The notes beneath the pieces were generated by a model that searched no databases, was not told where the DNA came from, and saw nothing but the letters and a program-made list of their open reading frames with translations. The position numbers were made by a program, and so were the translations under genes. DNA of 64,000 nucleotides from Streptomyces broussonetiae (lineage in GTDB: Bacteria; Actinomycetota; Actinomycetes; Streptomycetales; Streptomycetaceae), in assembly GCF_009796285.1 (NCBI RefSeq), contig NZ_CP047020.1, forward strand, positions 6,448,001-6,512,000, in the 5' to 3' direction. Of this stretch, positions 3,417 to 21,372 are shown piece after piece; within the stretch, counting starts at the first letter, position 1; each line of letters opens with the position of its first letter.

Positions 3417-3573
3417 CCAGGTGAGGGGCCTTGGGCCGGGGCCGCGGTGGCGGGCGGAAGTTGCGACGCAACGGTGACATTCGCCTGACACCCTGCTCAA
3501 AACCAGGCGGCTAATATGCGCGCACCAGTGTGGTGGGGAGCGGGCCAGGCCAGGCCCGACGAGGGGAGACGAC

Positions 3574-4818
3574 TTGAACGTGCGGCCAATATCGGGGGCG
3601 TCGGCGACGGGGCGGCGAGGCCGTGGGGGACGGCGGGGCGGTACGGGTCTCGCGCTGATATCCGGGGCCCTGGTGCTGTCGCTCGCGGCCTGCGGCGGGG
3701 GCGGCGGCAAGGGGGCGGACGACGGCAAGGGAGCCGTTACCCAGCAGGGCAAGCAGCAGTCGACGGCAGCCGTCACCATCTCGCCCAGGTCCGGCGCCAC
3801 CGGCGTCGACACGAGCGGCGCGCTCAAGGTCGACGCCGCCCGGGGCAAGCTGACCGAGGTGACCGTCAAGGACGGCAAGGGCACGAAGATCGACGGCAGC
3901 ATCACCGGCGGGGGCGCGTCCTGGACGCCGTCGACCCATCTGGCCGCCGCCACCAAGTACACGGTGCACGCGGTCGCGAAGGACTCCGAGGGCCGCGAGA
4001 GCGCCGAGGACTCCACCTTCACCACGCTCACCCCCAAGAACACCTTCCTCGGCTACTTCACCCCTGAGGACGGATCCACCGTCGGCGTGGGCATGCCGTT
4101 CTCCATCAACTTCAACCGGGGCATCACCCAGCCGCAGGCCGTCGAGAAGGCCATCAGGATCACGACGCAGCCCGCGGTGGACGTCGAGGGCCACTGGTTC
4201 GGCAACGACCGCCTCGACTTCCGCCCCGAGAAGTACTGGAAGGAAGGCACGAAGGTCACCGTCGACCTCGACCTCGACGGCGTCGAGGGCCGCTCCGGCG
4301 TCTACGGCAAGCAGCACAAGACCGTGAAGTTCACCATCGGCCGCAACCAGGTCTCCGTCGTGGACGCCAAGCAGCACACGATGAAGATCACCCAGGACGG
4401 CAAGGTCGTCAAGACCCTCCCCGTCACCACCGGCAAGCCCGGCTACGACACCTGGAACGGCCAGATGGTCATCAGCGAGAAGCTCTCGGTGACCCGGATG
4501 AACGGCGAGACGGTCGGCTACGGCGGCGAGTACGACATCAAGGACGTCCCGCACGCCATGCGCCTGACCACGTCCGGCACCTTCATCCACGGCAACTACT
4601 GGGGCGGCGACGCCTTCGGCAACTACAACGCCAGCCACGGCTGCGTGGGCCTGCGCGACGTGCGCGGCGGCTACGACGGCTCCGTCCCCGCGGCCTGGTT
4701 CTTCAACCACTCGCTCATCGGAGACGTGGTCGTCGTCCAGCACGCGCACGAGCGCACGGTGGACCCGTCCAACGGGCTCAACGGGTGGAACATGTCGTGG
4801 GCCGACTGGAAGAAGTGA
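3574..4818 (+). CDS. L,D-transpeptidase lipoprotein, tandem paralogue
   Basis: This is a second Ldt-type 3-3 cross-linking enzyme of 414 residues. It has a basic N-region, a lipobox (LAAC) followed by a Gly/Lys-rich linker, two Ig-like modules and a YkuD domain with HGNYWGG and SHGCVGL. It aligns with the upstream protein throughout, including the HWFG..RLDFRPE segment. The TTG start at 3574 follows the strong ribosome site GAGGGGAG; GTG at 3580 is an alternative two codons in. The gene ends at a strong terminator, so the pair may be one unit or two. Confidence 0.9.
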   Translation: MNVRPISGASATGRRGRGGRRGGTGLALISGALVLSLAACGGGGGKGADDGKGAVTQQGKQQSTAAVTISPRSGATGVDTSGALKVDAARGKLTEVTVKDGKGTKIDGSITGGGASWTPSTHLAAATKYTVHAVAKDSEGRESAEDSTFTTLTPKNTFLGYFTPEDGSTVGVGMPFSINFNRGITQPQAVEKAIRITTQPAVDVEGHWFGNDRLDFRPEKYWKEGTKVTVDLDLDGVEGRSGVYGKQHKTVKFTIGRNQVSVVDAKQHTMKITQDGKVVKTLPVTTGKPGYDTWNGQMVISEKLSVTRMNGETVGYGGEYDIKDVPHAMRLTTSGTFIHGNYWGGDAFGNYNASHGCVGLRDVRGGYDGSVPAAWFFNHSLIGDVVVVQHAHERTVDPSNGLNGWNMSWADWKK

Positions 4819-4832
4819 CCTTCCGCCGAGGT

Positions 4833-4869
4833 GCGGGCCCGGTGCTGTGACGGACGGCACCGGGCCCGC
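4833..4869 (+). terminator. Intrinsic terminator after the second L,D-transpeptidase gene
   Basis: A perfect 13-bp stem (4833-4845 with 4857-4869) encloses an 11-base loop 14 bases after the stop codon. It lacks a clear T-run, as is common in Streptomyces. Confidence 0.75.
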
Positions 4870-4897
4870 CCGCGTTAGTCCCCGTTAACCTGCCTCC

Positions 4898-5665
4898 ATG
4901 ACCGTCAATCTCGAAGTCGCCGAAGGCGTCGGTACCCTCCGTCTCGACCGGCCGCCGATGAACGCGCTGGACGTCGCCACCCAGGACCGGCTGAAGGAAC
5001 TCGCCGAGGAGGTCACGCGCCGCGACGACGTGCGCGCCGTGGTGATCTACGGCGGCGAGCGGGTGTTCGCGGCGGGCGCGGACATCAAGGAGATGCAGAA
5101 CATGGACCACACCGCGATGGTCCTGCGCTCCCGCGCCCTGCAGGACGCCTTCACGGCCGTGGCCCGCATCCCCAAGCCCGTCGTCGCGGCCGTCACCGGC
5201 TACGCCCTCGGTGGCGGCTGCGAACTGGCCCTGTGCGCCGACTTCCGCATCGCCGCCGACAACGCCAAGCTCGGCCAGCCCGAGATCCTGCTGGGCCTGA
5301 TCCCGGGCGCCGGCGGTACCCAGCGGCTGCCCCGGCTGATCGGCCCCTCCAAGGCCAAGGACCTCATCTTCACGGGCCGTCAGGTCAAGGCCGCCGAGGC
5401 CCTGGAGATCGGCCTGGTGGACCGGGTCGTCCCGGCCGCCGAGGTGTACGAGCAGGCGCGCGCGTGGGCCGCGAAGCTCGCCCAGGGCCCGGCGATCGCC
5501 CTGCGTGCCGCGAAGGAGTCGATCGACGCCGGCCTGGAGGCCGACATCGACACCGGGCTCACCGTGGAACGCAGTTGGTTCGCAGGCCTGTTCGCCACCG
5601 AGGACCGCGAGATCGGCATGCGCAGCTTCGTGGAGGAGGGGCCGGGCAAGGCCAAGTTCCGCTGA
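4898..5665 (+). CDS. Enoyl-CoA hydratase/isomerase family protein
   Basis: This crotonase-fold enzyme of 255 residues probably hydrates trans-2-enoyl-CoA in fatty-acid or amino-acid breakdown. Visible landmarks are the oxyanion-hole segments AAGADIKEM and GYALGGGCELAL, the downstream PEILLGLIPGAGGTQ segment, which carries a conserved glutamate, and the C-terminal helix. Length fits single-domain hydratases. No ribosome site precedes ATG 4898, so the message may be leaderless or start very close by. The stretch 5666-5963 after it has no convincing ORF; it contains a TTGACA at 5713 without a matching -10. Exact substrate is unknown. Confidence 0.88.
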   Translation: MTVNLEVAEGVGTLRLDRPPMNALDVATQDRLKELAEEVTRRDDVRAVVIYGGERVFAAGADIKEMQNMDHTAMVLRSRALQDAFTAVARIPKPVVAAVTGYALGGGCELALCADFRIAADNAKLGQPEILLGLIPGAGGTQRLPRLIGPSKAKDLIFTGRQVKAAEALEIGLVDRVVPAAEVYEQARAWAAKLAQGPAIALRAAKESIDAGLEADIDTGLTVERSWFAGLFATEDREIGMRSFVEEGPGKAKFR

Positions 5666-5963
5666 GCGCCACGGTGTGATCCTCCCCGCAACTTGCGTGC
5701 GTCGTCTTGCAATTGACACGTCGTCTCATCCGGGTCCCTCGATGGAGCGGTTTATGGGAGCCTTAATGCAGCCTTAAACCTGCTCTGTCGAGGAAGCCTG
5801 TCGATTGCCCGGAAGCGAGCCGTCCGCGCAGGTCAACCGGGTTGCATCGGACGTCGGCGTGCCCTCGGCATATGCCGGGCGCGGAGTGGGGCGCGGGGGC
5901 GTGCGGGGGGCGTATTCCTCCGGAACGGCCCCCAAGACGCCTCCGGACGGCCATCATGGGGGC

Positions 5964-6467
5964 ATGGCGGGGCTGGAGGGCATCGAACAGCCACGGGGAC
6001 ACAGTCGTGCGGCCGCGGCACGCTGGTCGCCCGGGGTCGAGGACGAGCAGGCGCTGAAGGCGCTCGAACTGTTCGGAAACCCGGCGGAGATCGAGGTGCC
6101 ACTGCCGTCCCGCCCGGAATCCGCGGCCACCGCCCGCCGGCTCACCCAGGTCGTCGTGCTGCGCACCTGGCGGCTTACCCCCAGACTGGCCGAGGACACG
6201 GTCTTACTCGTGTCGGAACTCGTCGGCAACGCCGTACGGCACACCGGCGCCCGGGTCTTCGGCCTCAGGATGCGCTGCCGCCCCGGCCGGATCCGGGTCG
6301 AGGTCCGCGATCCCTCGCGCGGGCTGCCCTGTCTGATGCCGGTTCAGGAGATGGACATCAGCGGCCGCGGACTCTTCCTCGTGGACAAGCTCTCCGACCG
6401 CTGGGGCGTGGACCTGCTGCCGCGGGGCAAGACGACATGGTTCGAGATGCGGGTGGCCGACCGGTAG
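5964..6467 (+). CDS. ATP-binding anti-sigma-type regulatory protein (HATPase_c, RsbW/SpoIIAB-like)
   Basis: This 167-residue single-domain GHKL ATPase belongs to the large Streptomyces family that binds sigma factors or anti-anti-sigma factors. The N-box LVSELVGNAVRHT, the G1 box VEVRDPS and the G2 box GRGLFLVDKL are all present. ATG 5964 is chosen because a G-rich ribosome site precedes it and the family alignment begins soon after; the open frame upstream lacks family character. A TTA leucine codon at 6204-6206, inside the N-box, makes translation dependent on the bldA tRNA. No partner sigma factor gene is adjacent. Confidence 0.85.
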   Translation: MAGLEGIEQPRGHSRAAAARWSPGVEDEQALKALELFGNPAEIEVPLPSRPESAATARRLTQVVVLRTWRLTPRLAEDTVLLVSELVGNAVRHTGARVFGLRMRCRPGRIRVEVRDPSRGLPCLMPVQEMDISGRGLFLVDKLSDRWGVDLLPRGKTTWFEMRVADR

Positions 6468-6563
6468 CGGGGACATGGCGCTGTCCTTGCGGCATTCTCA
6501 CGGCGACCCGAAATCATCGCTCGTTCGGGGTAATCGGCGGTTTTCTTACCAAACGCGCCTTAA

Positions 6564-7382
6564 ATGGACCGGGTGACCAACACCAACCGACGCGGGGTGC
6601 TGCGTGCGGGCGCCGGACTCGTCGCCGGCGGCGCGCTCGCCGCCGGTTGCGGTGCGGGCCAGGACGGACCACCCGCCACCGCGGGCTCCACGTCTGCTTC
6701 CCCGTCCCCGTCCACCGCGCGCGCCGCCGGCCACCCGTCGGCCGGTGCCCAGGCGGCCCCCGCCCCCCGCGCCTATCCCGGCCTGCCCGCCCAGATCACC
6801 CACGGCCCGCGCACCCGCCCCCAGGTCGCCCTTACCTTCCACGGCCAGGGCGATCCCGGTATCGCCCACTCCCTGCTGAGCACCGCCGAACGACACGGCG
6901 CCCACCTCACCGTGCTGGCCGTCGGTACCTGGCTGGACGAACACCCCGACGTCGCCCGCCGGATCCTCGACGGCGGCCACGACCTGGGCAACCACACCCA
7001 GCGGCACATCTCCGTCAACGCCATGCCCGAGGCCGCCGCCCGCAAGGAGATCACCGACTGCGCGGACCGCCTGAAGAAGCTCACCGGATCCATCGGGACC
7101 TGGTTCCGCCCCTCCCGGTCCCCGGTCGCCTCGCCGCTGGTCGCCCGGCTCGCCCGCGAGGCCGGCTACCCGCACGTGCTGTCGTACGACGTCGACTCGC
7201 TCGACTACACGAGCCCTGGCGCCGCCGCCGTCACCCGCAAGGTTCTCGCCGAAGTCAGGAACGGGTCGGTGGTGAGCATGCACTTCGGGTACCCGGGCAC
7301 CGTCGCCGCCCTGCCCGACGTCCTCCACGAACTCGACCGCCGTGCCCTGCGCGCGGTCACCACCACGGAGCTGCTGAGCTGA
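6564..7382 (+). CDS. Polysaccharide-deacetylase-like protein with altered catalytic motif
   Basis: This 272-residue exported NodB-fold protein starts with a twin-arginine leader (NRRGVLRAG) that also carries a lipobox (LAAGC), then a Pro/Ala/Ser linker, then the deacetylase domain from about residue 85. The metal-binding NHTQRH motif is intact. The usual TFDDG motif reads TFHGQGD, replacing the catalytic base and a metal ligand, and the usual RPPYG reads RPSRSP. It may therefore be catalytically altered or only carbohydrate-binding. GTG 6573 is an alternative start three codons in. Its TGA overlaps the next gene's ATG (7382) by one base, so the two are translationally coupled. Confidence 0.82.
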   Translation: MDRVTNTNRRGVLRAGAGLVAGGALAAGCGAGQDGPPATAGSTSASPSPSTARAAGHPSAGAQAAPAPRAYPGLPAQITHGPRTRPQVALTFHGQGDPGIAHSLLSTAERHGAHLTVLAVGTWLDEHPDVARRILDGGHDLGNHTQRHISVNAMPEAAARKEITDCADRLKKLTGSIGTWFRPSRSPVASPLVARLAREAGYPHVLSYDVDSLDYTSPGAAAVTRKVLAEVRNGSVVSMHFGYPGTVAALPDVLHELDRRALRAVTTTELLS

Positions 7383-8569
7383 TGCGAACCACGAAAGCCG
7401 CCCGGCTGCTGGCCGCCGGCGCCGCCCTCACCGCCCTGACGCTGCTGTCCGCGTGCAGTTCCGGATCCTCGAAAGGCGAGAACCAGGACCTCGGCAGCAA
7501 GCCCCCGGTCCAGCCGCAGGTGCGGCAGAACCGGGTGAACGTGCTGCCCGGGATGCCGCCGGTGGAGAACCCGGAGGACCTCTACAGCGCCGACCGACCG
7601 GGCCAACTCTCCCCGGTGGTCAAGGACTTCCCCTCCCGGGTGTACGTCCCCAACACCAACTCCAACACCGTCACCGTCATCGACCCCGAGACCTACAAGG
7701 TCATCGACACGATCCCGGTCGGCCGCCAGCCCCAGCACGTCGTACCGTCCTGGGACCTCAAGACCCTGTGGGTCAACAACGATCTCGGCAACAGCCTCAC
7801 GCCCATCGACCCCAAGACCGGCAAGGCCGGCAAGGCGGTGGCCGTGCACGACCCGTACAACCTGTACTTCACGCCCGACGGCAAGTACGCCGTCGTCATG
7901 GCCTCCATGGACCGCCAGCTGGTCTTCCGTGACGCGCACACCATGAAGGTCGTCAAGGCCGTGCCGGTCCACTGCTACGGCGTCAACCACGCCGACTTCT
8001 CCCCGGACGGCCGCTACTTCATCGTCTCCTGCGAGTTCAGCGGTGAGCTGCTCAAGGTCGACACCGCGAAGATGGAGGTCGTCGACCACCGGAAGCTGCC
8101 GTACCGCGGAGCGATGCCGCAGGACGTCAAGATCTCCCCGGACGGCAAGCTGTTCTACATCGCCGACATGGTCGCCGACGGTCTGTGGATCCTCGACGGC
8201 GACAACTTCACCAGGCCGCGTTTCCTCTACACCGGCAAGGGCTGCCACGGCCTCTACATCAGCCGCGACTCCCGCGAGATGTACATCTCCAACCGGGGCG
8301 AGGGCACCATCTCCGTCTTCGACTTCACCCTGGACAAGCTCACCAAGAAGTGGCGGCTGCCCGGTGGCGGCAGCCCCGACATGGGCGGTGTGTCGGCCGA
8401 CGGCAAGGTGCTGTGGCTGTCCGGCCGCTACAACTCCGAGGTGTACGCCATCGACACGAAGACCGGCAAGCAGCTCGCCCGTATCCAGGTCGGCAGCGGC
8501 CCGCACGGACTCGCCGTCTACCCGCAGCCGGGCCGCTACTCGCTCGGCCACACCGGCGTCTTCCGCTGA
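7382..8569 (+). CDS. YncE-like beta-propeller lipoprotein
   Basis: This 395-residue exported lipoprotein (lipobox LLSAC) is followed by a linker and repeated YVTN-type blades such as VYVPNTNSNTVTVID, LFYIADMVADGLWIL and MYISNRGEGTISVFD. These form a seven-bladed propeller used for binding rather than catalysis. Coupling to the deacetylase-like gene suggests a joint role on the cell surface, perhaps with a glycan. It ends 34 bases inside the oppositely oriented GNAT gene, so the two transcripts overlap tail to tail. Confidence 0.85.
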   Translation: MRTTKAARLLAAGAALTALTLLSACSSGSSKGENQDLGSKPPVQPQVRQNRVNVLPGMPPVENPEDLYSADRPGQLSPVVKDFPSRVYVPNTNSNTVTVIDPETYKVIDTIPVGRQPQHVVPSWDLKTLWVNNDLGNSLTPIDPKTGKAGKAVAVHDPYNLYFTPDGKYAVVMASMDRQLVFRDAHTMKVVKAVPVHCYGVNHADFSPDGRYFIVSCEFSGELLKVDTAKMEVVDHRKLPYRGAMPQDVKISPDGKLFYIADMVADGLWILDGDNFTRPRFLYTGKGCHGLYISRDSREMYISNRGEGTISVFDFTLDKLTKKWRLPGGGSPDMGGVSADGKVLWLSGRYNSEVYAIDTKTGKQLARIQVGSGPHGLAVYPQPGRYSLGHTGVFR

Positions 8570-15368: not shown

Positions 15369-17783
15369 GTGGAACCGTTGATGGGCATGGCGCTCTCGGC
15401 TGTCGGCACGGTCGCTTCGGGCGCCCTGTCCGGAGCGGGCGGTGAAGCGGGCAGACGGCTCTCCGAGCGGCTCTACGACCTGCTGAGCAGAGGACGCGGC
15501 GGCGACAACTCCGGTTCGGCCGACAGCGGTTCCACTCGGCCCACCCTTCCCGTCACCGGGCCCGAGCGGACGGCGGCGGCCCGGCACCTGCTCGAACTCG
15601 CCCGCAGCTCACCGGAGTTCGCCCGCGAGGTGACCGAGTGGGTCCGCGAGGCCTCGTGGCTGTCGCCGCGCACTGTACCCGCCGTCGCGCACGGCGCATC
15701 CCGTCCGCGGATGCTGCCGCCGACGACGGCGGTGTTCACCGACCGCGCGGACGTGCTCGCCTGGCTCACCGCCCTGCTGGACGAGGAGGGCCGCCCGCCC
15801 GGCGCACCCGCCGTCGCCGTCCTCACCGGCCCGGGCGGCATCGGCAAGACCGCCGCCGCCGTGCACTGCGCGACCGAGCTGCGGGAGCGGTTTCCGGACG
15901 GGGTGCTGTTCGCGGACCTGAAAGGCGCCTCGGCCGCCACGGCACTCCAGCCGTCCGACGTGCTCGCACGCTTCCTGGAACGGCTCGGGGTGCCGCCCGC
16001 CATGGTGCCGGGCGACGAGGCACGGCAGCGGGACCTCTACCGCGACTGCACCGCCGACCGGCGCATCGTCGTCGTTCTGGACAACGCCCATGACGACGCC
16101 CAGGTCGTCCCGCTGCTCCCGGCCTCGCCGCAGTGCCTCGTCCTGGTGACGAGCCGGCACCGCCCCGGGCGCCTCGTGGGCGAGCACGGTGCCCGGCCGT
16201 ATCCGCTCGGGCCGCTGTCGGCCGAGGACGCGGTGACCCTGATCAGGCGGGTCGCCGGCCGCGACCGTCCGACCGCTCCCGACGCGGTCGTTCGGGCCGT
16301 GGTGGACGGCACGGGAGGGATTCCGCTCGCGCTGTGCACCACGGGCGCCGGCCTCGCCGTACGGCACCAGCTGACCTGGGAGCGTGTCGCGCAGCAGCTC
16401 TCCGCCCGGAACAGGGGTCACGACCAGGGAGGCACCGCCGTGCGCGCAGCGGACGGGCAAGGGGCGGCCGATCCCGTCCGACTGGTCCAGGACGCCGCCT
16501 ACGCCGAACTGGCCCCCGACCGCGCCGCGTTCTACCGCGCCGTCGCGGTGTGGCCCTGGCCGACCGTGACCGTCCTGTGCGCCGCGCACGCCGCGGGAGT
16601 CTCCGAGGACGCGGCGCGGGGGCTGCTGGAGGAACTGGCCCGGGCGCATCTGCTGGAGGAGGCCGAGGAGGAGCGCTACCGGTTTCACGACCTGACCCGG
16701 GCGCACGCCCACGCACTCGCGGAGACCGAGGACGGGCACGGCCGGATGGCCGCCGCCGTCCGCCGGGTGGCGGTCGCGCACCTGCGCCTCGCGGCCGGTG
16801 CCGACTTCCGGGTCATGCCGCTGCGTTGGCGGCTCGGCCCCGCCTATCGGGGACTCGCCCTGCCGGAACACCGCGACCGCGCCGACGGCAAGCACGCGCT
16901 CGCCGAACTGCGCGCCGAGCGTGAGAACCTCGCGGCCGTCGTCCGGGCCGCCGCCCACCACGGTTTCGACGACCTCGTGTGGCAGCTGTGCGAGGCCATG
17001 TGGAGCCTGCATCTGCTGCTCGGCTTCCATGCCCAGTGGATCGACACCCACCTCCTCGGCGTCGAGGCGGCCCGGCGCGGCGCGCAGGAGTTCGGCGACC
17101 CGCGTGCCGTCGGCCGCATGTGGACGCAACTCGCCTTCGGGTACATGGGAGCCGGCCGGGCGAGTGCGGCCGCGGACGCCCTCGCGCAGGCCAGGGCCGC
17201 CGACCGGGGCTGCGGTCACCACCGGGGCGAGGCGACCGCCGTCGAGGCGCTGGGGCTGCTCCGCCTCAAACAGTGGGAGTTCGCGGCGGCCCAGCGGTGT
17301 TTCGAGGAGGCGCAGGAGGTGCTGCGCCGTATCGGTCCGGGTGAGGACGGCTGGGCGGACGTGCCGCGCGCCACGGCCCTGTTGGCGCACCACATCGGCC
17401 GCGCCCAGACCAAGCAGCGGCAATTCCCGGCCGCCGTAGCGCGGTTGAACGACGCCCTCGCACAGTTCCGTCGGCTGCCGGGCGGCGGGGACACCTACAA
17501 CGCCGGCCGCGTCTACATGAGCTTGGGCGACGCCCATCTGGACGCCGGAGACGCGGAGCAGGCGCGCGTGTGCCTGGACGAGGCCGTCATGGCCATGACC
17601 GAGGCGGGCGCGGGGCTCCAACTGGCCGACGCCGTCGAGGCGCGGGCCCGCTGCCATCGCCTGTCGGGCCGCCCGGCCGAGGAGGCGCAGGACCTGCGCA
17701 CCGCCGCCGCCCGCTACGAGGCGAACGAGGACCGGATCGGCCTGACCCGCGTACGGACGCGCCTGGCCGAACTGGAGCGCTGA
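15369..17783 (+). CDS. STAND NTPase (NB-ARC) with C-terminal TPR repeats
   Basis: The 804-residue protein has a short N-terminal domain rich in Gly/Ala that may contact membrane. An NB-ARC module follows at about residues 110-420, with Walker A GPGGIGKT, Walker B VVVLDNA, the LVTSR sensor and the GIPLAL motif. A winged-helix region (RYRFHDLTRAHA) and at least six TPR units complete it. It resembles AfsR without the SARP DNA-binding domain. Such proteins act as signal-triggered switches in regulation or immunity. GTG 15369 follows GGGGGAG. It is divergent from the WD40/membrane pair. Confidence 0.85.
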   Translation: MEPLMGMALSAVGTVASGALSGAGGEAGRRLSERLYDLLSRGRGGDNSGSADSGSTRPTLPVTGPERTAAARHLLELARSSPEFAREVTEWVREASWLSPRTVPAVAHGASRPRMLPPTTAVFTDRADVLAWLTALLDEEGRPPGAPAVAVLTGPGGIGKTAAAVHCATELRERFPDGVLFADLKGASAATALQPSDVLARFLERLGVPPAMVPGDEARQRDLYRDCTADRRIVVVLDNAHDDAQVVPLLPASPQCLVLVTSRHRPGRLVGEHGARPYPLGPLSAEDAVTLIRRVAGRDRPTAPDAVVRAVVDGTGGIPLALCTTGAGLAVRHQLTWERVAQQLSARNRGHDQGGTAVRAADGQGAADPVRLVQDAAYAELAPDRAAFYRAVAVWPWPTVTVLCAAHAAGVSEDAARGLLEELARAHLLEEAEEERYRFHDLTRAHAHALAETEDGHGRMAAAVRRVAVAHLRLAAGADFRVMPLRWRLGPAYRGLALPEHRDRADGKHALAELRAERENLAAVVRAAAHHGFDDLVWQLCEAMWSLHLLLGFHAQWIDTHLLGVEAARRGAQEFGDPRAVGRMWTQLAFGYMGAGRASAAADALAQARAADRGCGHHRGEATAVEALGLLRLKQWEFAAAQRCFEEAQEVLRRIGPGEDGWADVPRATALLAHHIGRAQTKQRQFPAAVARLNDALAQFRRLPGGGDTYNAGRVYMSLGDAHLDAGDAEQARVCLDEAVMAMTEAGAGLQLADAVEARARCHRLSGRPAEEAQDLRTAAARYEANEDRIGLTRVRTRLAELER

Positions 17784-18035: not shown

Positions 18036-19896
18036 TCACGGTGCGCCCGAGGTGAGCGGGGTGACAGGGGCGAGCGGGGCGAGTGGGTCCACGGTGACGT
18101 GGTGCACGGTGTCACCCGTGCGCACGGTGATCCCGGGCACGGCGTCGGCCAGGTCACGGCCGCTCGTCAGCCAGGCGTGGAGGGCGGAGGCGTAAGCGGC
18201 GGGATCGCACAGGTCGGCCCGCCCGTCGGGGCCCGCGGCGGCGGACAGCCGTACGAGGTCCCCCTCGCGGGTGCGGACGACACAGCGGTCCGGTCCGTCG
18301 ACATAGGCGGTCAGCCCGCAGTACGGGTAGCGGTCGAGCGCCTCCGCCGTCCAGGCGGCCGGCGGCCCGAGACGCGGGTCGTCCCCGGCCGCGTACCGTA
18401 CGACGACATCGGCGATCCGCAGCCGGCCGGTCTGCGGTGTCTCCTCGTCGACCACGGTGTGGGCGGAGTCGACCCACGGTGCCGCGTCGTCCGCCGGGTC
18501 GGGCCCGTCACTCACGACGGCGTGGCGCACGACGGAGACCTCTGGCGGAGCGGTGCCGATGACGCCGCTGAGCACACGGACCGGGGCGGTACGGCGGGCG
18601 GGCAGGTAGGGCGGCAGCGGCAGCGGGTCGAGCAGCGCGGGGTGTGCCGCGGGTTCGGGCAGGCCCATGAGGCCGTAGAACAGGCGGCGCAGCAGAGCGG
18701 CCGACTCGCCCGGCGCCGAACTGGTCTGCTCCGCAAGCTCCTTGTACCGGCCGGGATCGTGCGCCGCCATGACCCGGTCGATCTGGGCACGCAGGCTGCC
18801 CCGGCGGACGAGACGGGGAGCGCTGCGGCCGAGGGCGGCGACCGGCGAGAGCGGGTCGAGGTCCTGCTGAGGGAACGCGCCGAGCAGGACGGGGACGCCG
18901 ATCGACGCCGCATAGTAGGTGACGCTCGAATGGTCGCCCAGGACGCAGTCGGCGGCGATCAGGGCTTGGCGCCACCCGTCGAGCGGCGGGATCGCGTCGA
19001 GGCCGGCCCGCCGTGCGTTGCCCAGCCAGGCACGCACCTGTCCGGGCCCGTGGCCGTACCAGATGTTGGGATGCAGCACCGCGACGGTCCGGTACTCGTC
19101 GGCCGGCAGCTCCGCCGAGAGGCGGGACAGCAGCCAGGGCAGCAGATCGTCCGCCGCCGGCTCCCAGTCCCCGCCGAAGAGGGAGCGGGGGGCCCAGGTG
19201 GAGCTGACGACGATCAGCCGCTGGCCGGGGCCCACGCCCAACGCGCGGCGTAGCAGGGCGCGTTGGGGGAGGGCGGCGAGTATGCGGTCGTAGCAGGGGT
19301 CACCCGCGAGCACGGCCGTGGGAGCCGCCTGCGGACAGGCCGAGCGCAGCCGGTCCAGCTGCTCGGGGTGGGAGAGGACGGTGGCGTCTGCCAGGGGGCG
19401 CCCGTCGTGGAGAAGCCAGTCAGGAGACAGACCGAAGACCGGTGTTGTCCGGTGTTGTCCGGTGTTGTCCGGTGTTGTCCGGTGTTGCGAGCCTCTTATT
19501 ATAGCCAACACCGTGTGACAGGACGGCCAACTTGCCTTGCAGTGCGCTCAGTTCGCCACCGTAACTGGCCGAGACGGCCAGGTCGAACGGTGTGTCCCTG
19601 GCCTGCTCCCAGGGCAGCACCGGCAGCCCCGCCCGGGCCAGCAGCTCGGGCACTCCGGCCAGGAACGGGGACGAGCCCGTGCAGGTGGCGAACATCTGCA
19701 CGCGCAGGTCGCCGGAGAACAGCGGGAGAACGTCCAGCAGCCGCGTCGCCGACGTCACGTTGTGCACGATGAACAGGACCCGACGACAGCCCACCCGCGT
19801 GACCCAGCGCTCCGCGCCCTCGCCCACGGGCACCCGCACCCGTGCCGCCTCGCCCGTCACCTCACCCGCCGCTGCCCCACCCGCCACGCGGTTCAC
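18036..19896 (-). pseudogene. CDP-glycerol glycerophosphotransferase-like gene split by a 10-bp tandem repeat (possible phase variation)
   Basis: Two frames encode one protein. The N-terminal part starts at GTG 19896 and runs through a LSHGVGYNKR segment, then the repeat, ending out of frame near 19420. The C-terminal part continues from VFGLSPDWL to the stop at 18036, with GDPCYDRI and GDHSSVTYY typical of the glycerophosphotransferase-like family. Removing one 10-base unit gives 1851 bases and 616 residues in one frame; adding two units also works. GTG 19896 lies one base after the sdaA stop, so the gene is in the sdaA transcript. Codons just before the repeat (TAT AAT AAG AGG) are unusual here. 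It may be a contingency gene now off, or an inactive allele. Confidence 0.75.
19441..19488. repeat. 10-bp tandem repeat, four full units plus a partial
   Basis: GGTGTTGTCC occurs four times head to tail from 19441 to 19480, and a fifth partial unit runs to 19488. The unit length is not a multiple of three and the array lies inside a coding region, so copy-number change switches the frame. An inverted copy of the core (CAACACC) lies at 19506-19512 and could pair with the array. Confidence 0.95.
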
Positions 19897-19897
19897 C

Positions 19898-21280
<1,383 letters not shown>

Positions 21281-21331
21281 GGACGACTCCTCAAGACGGG
21301 GGTGGTGCGAAAAAGGGCGGTACGGGGGTGC

Positions 21332-21372
21332 GGGCACCGCGCACGCCGGTACTCCCAGTGTGCGCGGTGCCC
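21332..21372 (-). terminator. Terminator between glyA and sdaA
   Basis: A perfect 13-bp stem (21332-21344 with 21360-21372) with a 15-base loop lies 13 bases after the glyA stop. sdaA therefore probably has its own promoter or is reached by read-through. Confidence 0.7.

Follow-up and report, generated by a model that had tools for sequence, protein, structure and literature searches.

A probable contingency locus with a frame-breaking tandem repeat in a TagF-like gene, found across several families of Actinomycetes

The DNA analyzed here (the window) is a 64,000-nucleotide stretch of Streptomyces broussonetiae (NZ_CP047020.1, positions 6,448,001 to 6,512,000). On its minus strand a short tandem array divides a gene into two halves which lie in different reading frames, and a gene for an NB-ARC/TPR protein converges on this gene from the other strand. 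The features, in window coordinates, are as follows.

18036 to 19896, minus strand: the whole switched gene, encoding a TagF-like protein of GT-B fold, 616 aa when in frame and out of frame (OFF) in the window assembly
19501 to 19896, minus strand: N-terminal half, 132 codons ending ...VLSHGVGY, used in tblastn searches for homologs
19495 to 19506, minus strand: rare-codon block GGCTATAATAAG (GGNTAYAMTAAR), present once in the whole 9.7-Mb genome
19439 to 19487, minus strand: frame-breaking tandem array, 4.9 copies of ACAACACCGG on the gene strand (GGTGTTGTCC on the plus strand)
18036 to 19438, minus strand: C-terminal half, beginning ...FGLSPDWLL, one unit out of frame with the N-terminal half
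15369 to 17783, plus strand: NB-ARC/TPR (STAND-type) partner gene, 804 aa, convergent with the switched gene (Pfam NB-ARC, 3.5e-9, and TPR_12)
19898 to 21337, minus strand: sdaA-like gene for L-serine dehydratase, the immediate upstream neighbour, included only for context and retained in 4 of 80 named loci

TRF analysis of the array gave a period of 10, 4.9 copies, 100% match and a score of 98, and this was the clearest perfect frame-breaking array of the whole window. The frame of the N-terminal half runs for 158 aa to a stop just beyond the array while the C-terminal half is open in a different frame, as had been proposed in a first-pass annotation in which a 10-bp repeat was said to split one gene into two frames. 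A 616-residue ORF had been predicted there following either the loss of one unit or the gain of two. In silico removal of one unit did give 616 aa followed by a stop, but addition of two units gave 626 aa. The genome is a single 9.7-Mb contig in which the full 301-base stretch searched for was found once and, since the assembly is in one contig and a 49-bp array falls within ordinary read lengths, a consensus error in the array is unlikely. Two sequence features close to the array were considered and set aside. An inverted copy of the unit core (CAACACCG, 8 bp, folding z about -2.3 in the window), which had been suggested to aid slippage, was absent from the nearest relatives. A palindrome upstream of the array (GGYSAACT-N17-AGTTGRCC) occurred equally in array-less homologs of the main family, with arms lacking covariation, and results incidentally from protein and codon constraints.

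Direct evidence for unit-number switching was obtained from one pair of strains within a species, taken from complete plasmids in a plasmid collection, as the genome collections contained one genome per species. The genes of S. anthocyanicus NBC_01372 and NBC 01668 (NZ_CP109572.1, NZ_CP109229.1) were 99.95% identical over 1,894 nt and the sole length difference between them was 56 bp, corresponding to 9 versus 17 perfect GGGAGCC units. The NBC_01372 gene is in frame (ON) and annotated as one 589-residue protein, while that of NBC 01668 is out of frame and its annotation covers the C-terminal half only. On both plasmids (L310 and L311, about 6700-7550) the STAND partner gene appeared to have decayed to short ORFs while the switched gene was intact. 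Close species also differed. Three relatives of the window strain carried the same 10-bp unit in 3.9 copies and all were ON, as opposed to 4.9 copies and OFF in the window, and the same contrast was observed between S. sp. NBS 14/10 (4.9 copies, OFF) and S. milbemycinicus (3.9 copies, ON). The first-pass annotation had regarded a uniform unit count as grounds for rejecting a contingency locus; what we observed was the 4.9 versus 3.9 difference and the 8-unit difference between strains, and the proposal of a contingency locus is supported by this variation in unit count and frame.

These comparisons also bear on assembly or consensus error at the repeat. Runs of N were present within the array in a few draft assemblies (L054, L088, L132, L133), which would favour such an error. 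Against it, the window assembly is complete in a single contig, further complete genomes also contain OFF alleles, and the two complete plasmids, with 99.95% identical sequence flanking the array, were exactly 8 units apart. Error is already refuted as a general explanation, and we give it a negligible probability.

Homologs were collected from 296 Streptomyces genomes, a family-wide sample, a class-wide sample, a named GTDB collection and homologs located by place. After duplicate removal this gave 199 junctions, which are related by descent and were sampled by similarity. Arrays were called by our own thresholds (score of at least 12, at least 1.8 units, start within 30 nt). The exactly homologous site lies between ...SHGxGY(N/T)K and (V)FGLxPxWL, and 136 of the 199 junctions had an array there. 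The locus is therefore more widespread than the first-pass annotation had supposed, with a frame-breaking array in most homologs, in several genera and in at least three families of the class. The unit was 7 bp long at 116 of the array junctions, 10 bp at 10, 8 bp at 9 and 4 bp at one, with no unit length a multiple of three (0/136). By comparison, 15 of 22 other perfect arrays in 1.28 Mb of sequence (the named loci and the window) had units which were multiples of three.

The sequence of the unit varied considerably, with 36 distinct units in the tree set. Different groups carried ACACCGG, GGGAGCC, ACACCCA, GGTCGCC, GAGCACC or CCAAGCG, and further group-specific units included ACAACACCGG, CAGGCCCGGT, CAGCCGGG and GCCA, among others. 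Mixed arrays, for example GGGTGCC followed by GGGAGCC, show the route by which one unit replaces another. Given the drift of units at a fixed site and the existence of mixed arrays, a mobile element or insertion was rejected as the origin of the array. The sole insertion seen was an IS5-like element of about 1 kb in L021 / L297 (genome G009), which sits precisely at the block's CTAA, the array behind it being intact; it disrupts the block and does not create it, which also argues against an insertion origin. Arrays of 9-39 GGGAGCC units were observed elsewhere in many Streptomyces genomes (L324-L343 except L338), lacking the rare-codon block and mostly intergenic as judged by stops in most surrounding frames, which indicates that Streptomyces is prone to heptanucleotide arrays. 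Two other long heptanucleotide arrays, TGCCCAT x9.9 (L219, 7067-7135) and GCGGTCG x10.6 (L232, 3712-3785), lay a few kb from the switched gene and were probably intergenic.

The first-pass annotation had noted atypical codons flanking the repeat, and these proved to be a conserved rare-codon block. The codon following GY ended in T and was followed by AAR (NNT-AAR) in 134 of 136 array genes (AAT in 91, ACT in 42, AGT in one) compared with 3 of 60 array-less homologs (Fisher p = 4e-43), and the three exceptions were an IS-disrupted locus, a gene with 2.3 residual copies and one with a decayed array. In the remainder of the same N-terminal halves Asn was encoded by AAT in 2.8% of cases, Thr by ACT in 4.8% and Arg by AGA or AGG in 3.7%; the block therefore does not reflect ordinary codon usage. 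Retention of the T despite a change from Asn to Thr or Ser points to selection at the DNA or RNA level. The 12-mer GGNTAYAMTAAR, whose single occurrence in the window genome is at the switched gene, had nine matches across eight genomes and eight of these were array genes. The shorter motif TAYAVTAA occurred 77 times in the 1.28 Mb, and 73 perfect arrays adjoined such a motif. The block was absent from 19 of 20 other GGGAGCC array sites which were fetched, and a requirement of the block for an array to exist was rejected on this basis.

Read on either strand, the block looks like a -10 element, with the array starting some 4-15 bp beyond it. On the plus strand of the window (19475-19502) one array unit and the block together form an antisense sigma-70-like sequence, TTGTCC-16-TATTAT, with 0 expected in shuffles. 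An alternative explanation is that TAYAMT is an internal promoter, or that TAKTRT on the other strand is an antisense promoter, and that the array controls transcription or a separate C-terminal protein, whether instead of the frame or alongside it. Only one base has been retained in opposition to codon preference, namely the final T of a TANNNT -10 hexamer, and the start of the array lies roughly where a transcript start would be expected; the antisense match in the window also agrees with this explanation. However, there is no -35 element at normal spacing on the sense strand, where a TTG lies 21 bp away and is missing in some paralogs, and the antisense -35 is tied to the variable unit. We consider a promoter role unlikely.

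The frame of the C-terminal half relative to the N-terminal half could be scored for 128 arrays, of which 68, 34 and 26 were in frames 0, 1 and 2 respectively (68 ON, 60 OFF), whereas 57 of 59 array-less homologs were in frame, and by our reading the two others were one alignment slip and one decayed array. ON genes exceeded the one third predicted for a frame of no consequence (68/128, p=5e-6), and this excess was retained after clustering at 90% identity (55/105, p = 7e-5). On a tree of the N-terminal halves there were 43 ON/OFF changes compared with a mean of 40.1 for shuffled labels, hence no phylogenetic signal, whereas unit sequence changed 55 times compared with 86.7 for shuffled labels, which is a signal. 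Switching of state is therefore more rapid than species divergence, whereas the unit is passed on by descent. The absence of signal for state would also fit, indirectly, with frequent and reversible switching in culture. In two species pairs in which both genes were OFF, substitutions at the three codon positions numbered 13/12/38 (L013/L194; 38 of 63 at the third position) and 11/10/42 (L030/L257; 42 of 63), and there were no stops in the C-terminal halves. Third-position bias and the lack of stops indicate that OFF genes are not decaying and that purifying selection persists through OFF states.

The array could be a microsatellite drifting neutrally in a loop that tolerates it, within a gene that the cell can dispense with, and OFF alleles would then be plain losses. 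The loop is flexible, GGGAGCC arrays are widespread outside the gene and some homologs have no array, all of which would be accommodated by such an explanation. If the gene were needed, however, a tolerant loop should gather units which are multiples of three, yet there were none, and a dispensable gene should accumulate stops and relaxed substitution in OFF lineages, neither of which was found. The excess of ON genes over one third, and a rare-codon block retained only where an array is present, are also not accounted for, and we regard neutrality as very unlikely. Programmed recoding, in which a ribosome or RNA polymerase shifts frame at the block and array so that the array tunes the amount of full-length protein, would make use of the nearly invariant block and the rare codons before the arrays (AAT-AAR, often AGG). 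With C-terminal halves in all three frames no single direction of shift would serve all of the genes, which rules out a fixed programmed frameshift, and the enrichment of ON genes together with in-frame array-less homologs (57/59) is also contrary to recoding, which we judge highly improbable.

To characterize the encoded protein we used a predicted structure of the in-frame close relative L178 (mean pLDDT 90.4, pTM 0.91), in which the array-coded segment was a loop of lower confidence directly after the HGxGYNK strand. The best Foldseek match of this model was TagF (3l7j, E 3.5e-10, prob 1.00), followed closely by TarL (8va1). UDP-GlcNAc 2-epimerases scored nearly as well, and the match thus supports the GT-B fold class, not a substrate or function. 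The protein shares this fold class with the TagF/TarL CDP-polyol:poly(polyol-phosphate) transferases (PF04464) and differs from them in having only 12-14% identity and sequence beyond the matched part. A PF04464 match was obtained for 3 of 51 homologs (best E 1e-5); neither the window protein nor L178 reached the Pfam gathering score, and L175, at 15.6, fell below the cut-off of 22.1. We therefore take the protein to act in the manner of a TagF-type transferase without assigning it to the family; the first-pass description as glycerophosphotransferase-like is, with the inverted copy, a weaker detail of that annotation, supported by the TagF fold similarity and by these few Pfam matches. Invariant H124 (HG) and H268 (HPN) are candidate counterparts of H444 and H548, which are altered in TagF variant structures. 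A sequence search of the PDB gave no useful match, and no teichoic-acid genes were seen as neighbours of the switched gene. One in-frame homolog (alignment A2) matched NCBIfam NF041631 ('KRQAASG repeat spurious translation'), and real array-coded peptides may be flagged as spurious through this model.

The partner protein matched PF00931 and PF13424 above their cut-offs, giving an NB-ARC NTPase followed by a repeat domain as in STAND NTPases. It was encoded tail-to-tail with the switched gene in 86 of 90 array loci and in 20 of 26 array-less loci having enough sequence, and the association extended to other families and to deep paralogs. In the named loci the 3' ends of the two genes usually touched (median overlap 4 bp), while the gap in the window was 252 bp. 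An sdaA/glyA operon was rejected as functional context, being kept in only 4/80 named loci, and with the partner conserved and these genes not, the switched gene and its partner form an old module. This TagF-like/STAND module has gained the array as a switch in its first gene, or lost it there. L184 contained two switched paralogs at one locus; the second (3521-5338) had its own convergent STAND gene (5318-7876), and the partner of the first was inverted and lay behind a lysozyme-like gene. PADLOC gave nothing convincing for the window proteins and weak, scattered matches among 24 partner homologs, and the nearest curated NCBIfam models to the partner, AfsR and HaaT, were far below cut-off. 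The STAND-type architecture of the partner suggests a conflict or immune role.

Taken together, we consider it very probable that Actinomycetes have here an ancient contingency locus, family-wide in extent, in which slipped-strand changes in repeat number act as the switch, its age following from its presence in several families. Unit-number changes, which we infer to arise by slipped-strand mispairing and to be reversible within a culture, would move the C-terminal half in and out of the frame of the N-terminal half. In frame, the gene would encode a full TagF-like transferase; out of frame, it would encode only a truncated N-terminal product ending after HGxGYNK, a stretch which we take, from the analogy to TagF, to be the catalytic HG motif, and activity would presumably be lost. 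An OFF allele might yield some product through frameshifting or internal initiation. Because the array probably encodes a flexible loop any in-frame length may be tolerated, and GC-rich units would keep the frames open. Selection may hold unit lengths off multiples of three, such that the switch would persist while unit sequence drifts. The switched gene and the convergent STAND-type NTPase gene would act as a two-gene module and, from the class of the enzyme and the nature of the partner, we would guess that the cell benefits by varying a surface polymer recognised by phages or competitors.

A further reading, which we put forward tentatively as somewhat short of an even chance, is that the GGNTAYAMTAAR block and the non-triplet array constitute one dedicated cis-acting cassette that phase-varies a TagF-like/STAND immune-type module and that has been kept through the divergence of several actinomycete families while the repeat sequence was continually replaced. 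If true, this would be the first known family-wide repeat contingency system in Actinomycetes, and the block would be a sequence element setting or using array instability. The block and the 36 unit types provide a natural experiment on the causes of such instability. The switch occurs widely in a genus that produces antibiotics, and differences between strains in surface or phage phenotype, laboratory stocks included, may consequently be plain changes in unit number. Automatic annotation hides the switch, as OFF alleles appear as a shorter 'hypothetical protein'.

Slipped-strand contingency loci based on simple sequence repeats are a known kind of switch, found in surface-glycan genes of Haemophilus, Neisseria and Campylobacter, and repeat-driven contingency loci are known mainly from pathogens with small genomes. 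As in those three genera, the repeat described here is within the gene, breaks the frame with a unit that is not a multiple of three, affects a gene of surface-polymer type and has ON and OFF states coexisting between strains. Unlike in those loci, the unit is mostly 7 bp and sometimes 8, 10 or 4 bp, its sequence turns over while the site and the non-triplet length persist across families, and it is accompanied by a conserved rare-codon block in high-GC filamentous soil bacteria. Within Streptomyces, the case already known is the pglX gene of the Pgl (BREX-type) phage defence of S. coelicolor, which switches at 1e-2 to 1e-4 through a G tract (PMC4365076). It resembles the present locus as a case of repeat-length phase variation inside a Streptomyces coding sequence, and pglX is phage-related, but its tract is homopolymeric and lies in a methyltransferase gene, whereas the window has a 10-bp unit in an unrelated gene of another module and is not a Pgl/BREX system. 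In Mycobacterium tuberculosis, also an actinomycete, the copy number of promoter tandem repeats varies at 1e-2 to 1e-3 in isogenic populations (PMC12817950), whereas here the array lies within an ORF and changes the frame. Heptameric repeats are over-represented in bacteria and have been little studied (PMC4692102), and in a recent review (PMC11868660) Streptomyces and actinomycetes go unmentioned and soil bacteria are identified as a gap in knowledge. The STAND/NB-ARC conflict systems of multicellular bacteria (PMC7159879) share with our module the NB-ARC plus TPR architecture and a multicellular actinomycete host, and phase variation, tandem repeats and frameshifts are not mentioned in that text. 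No published report of a TagF-like/STAND switch locus was found in the open-licence literature. What is new in the locus compared with these systems is a switch conserved across genera and families with turnover of its repeat, a nearly unique rare-codon block, and a STAND-linked module.
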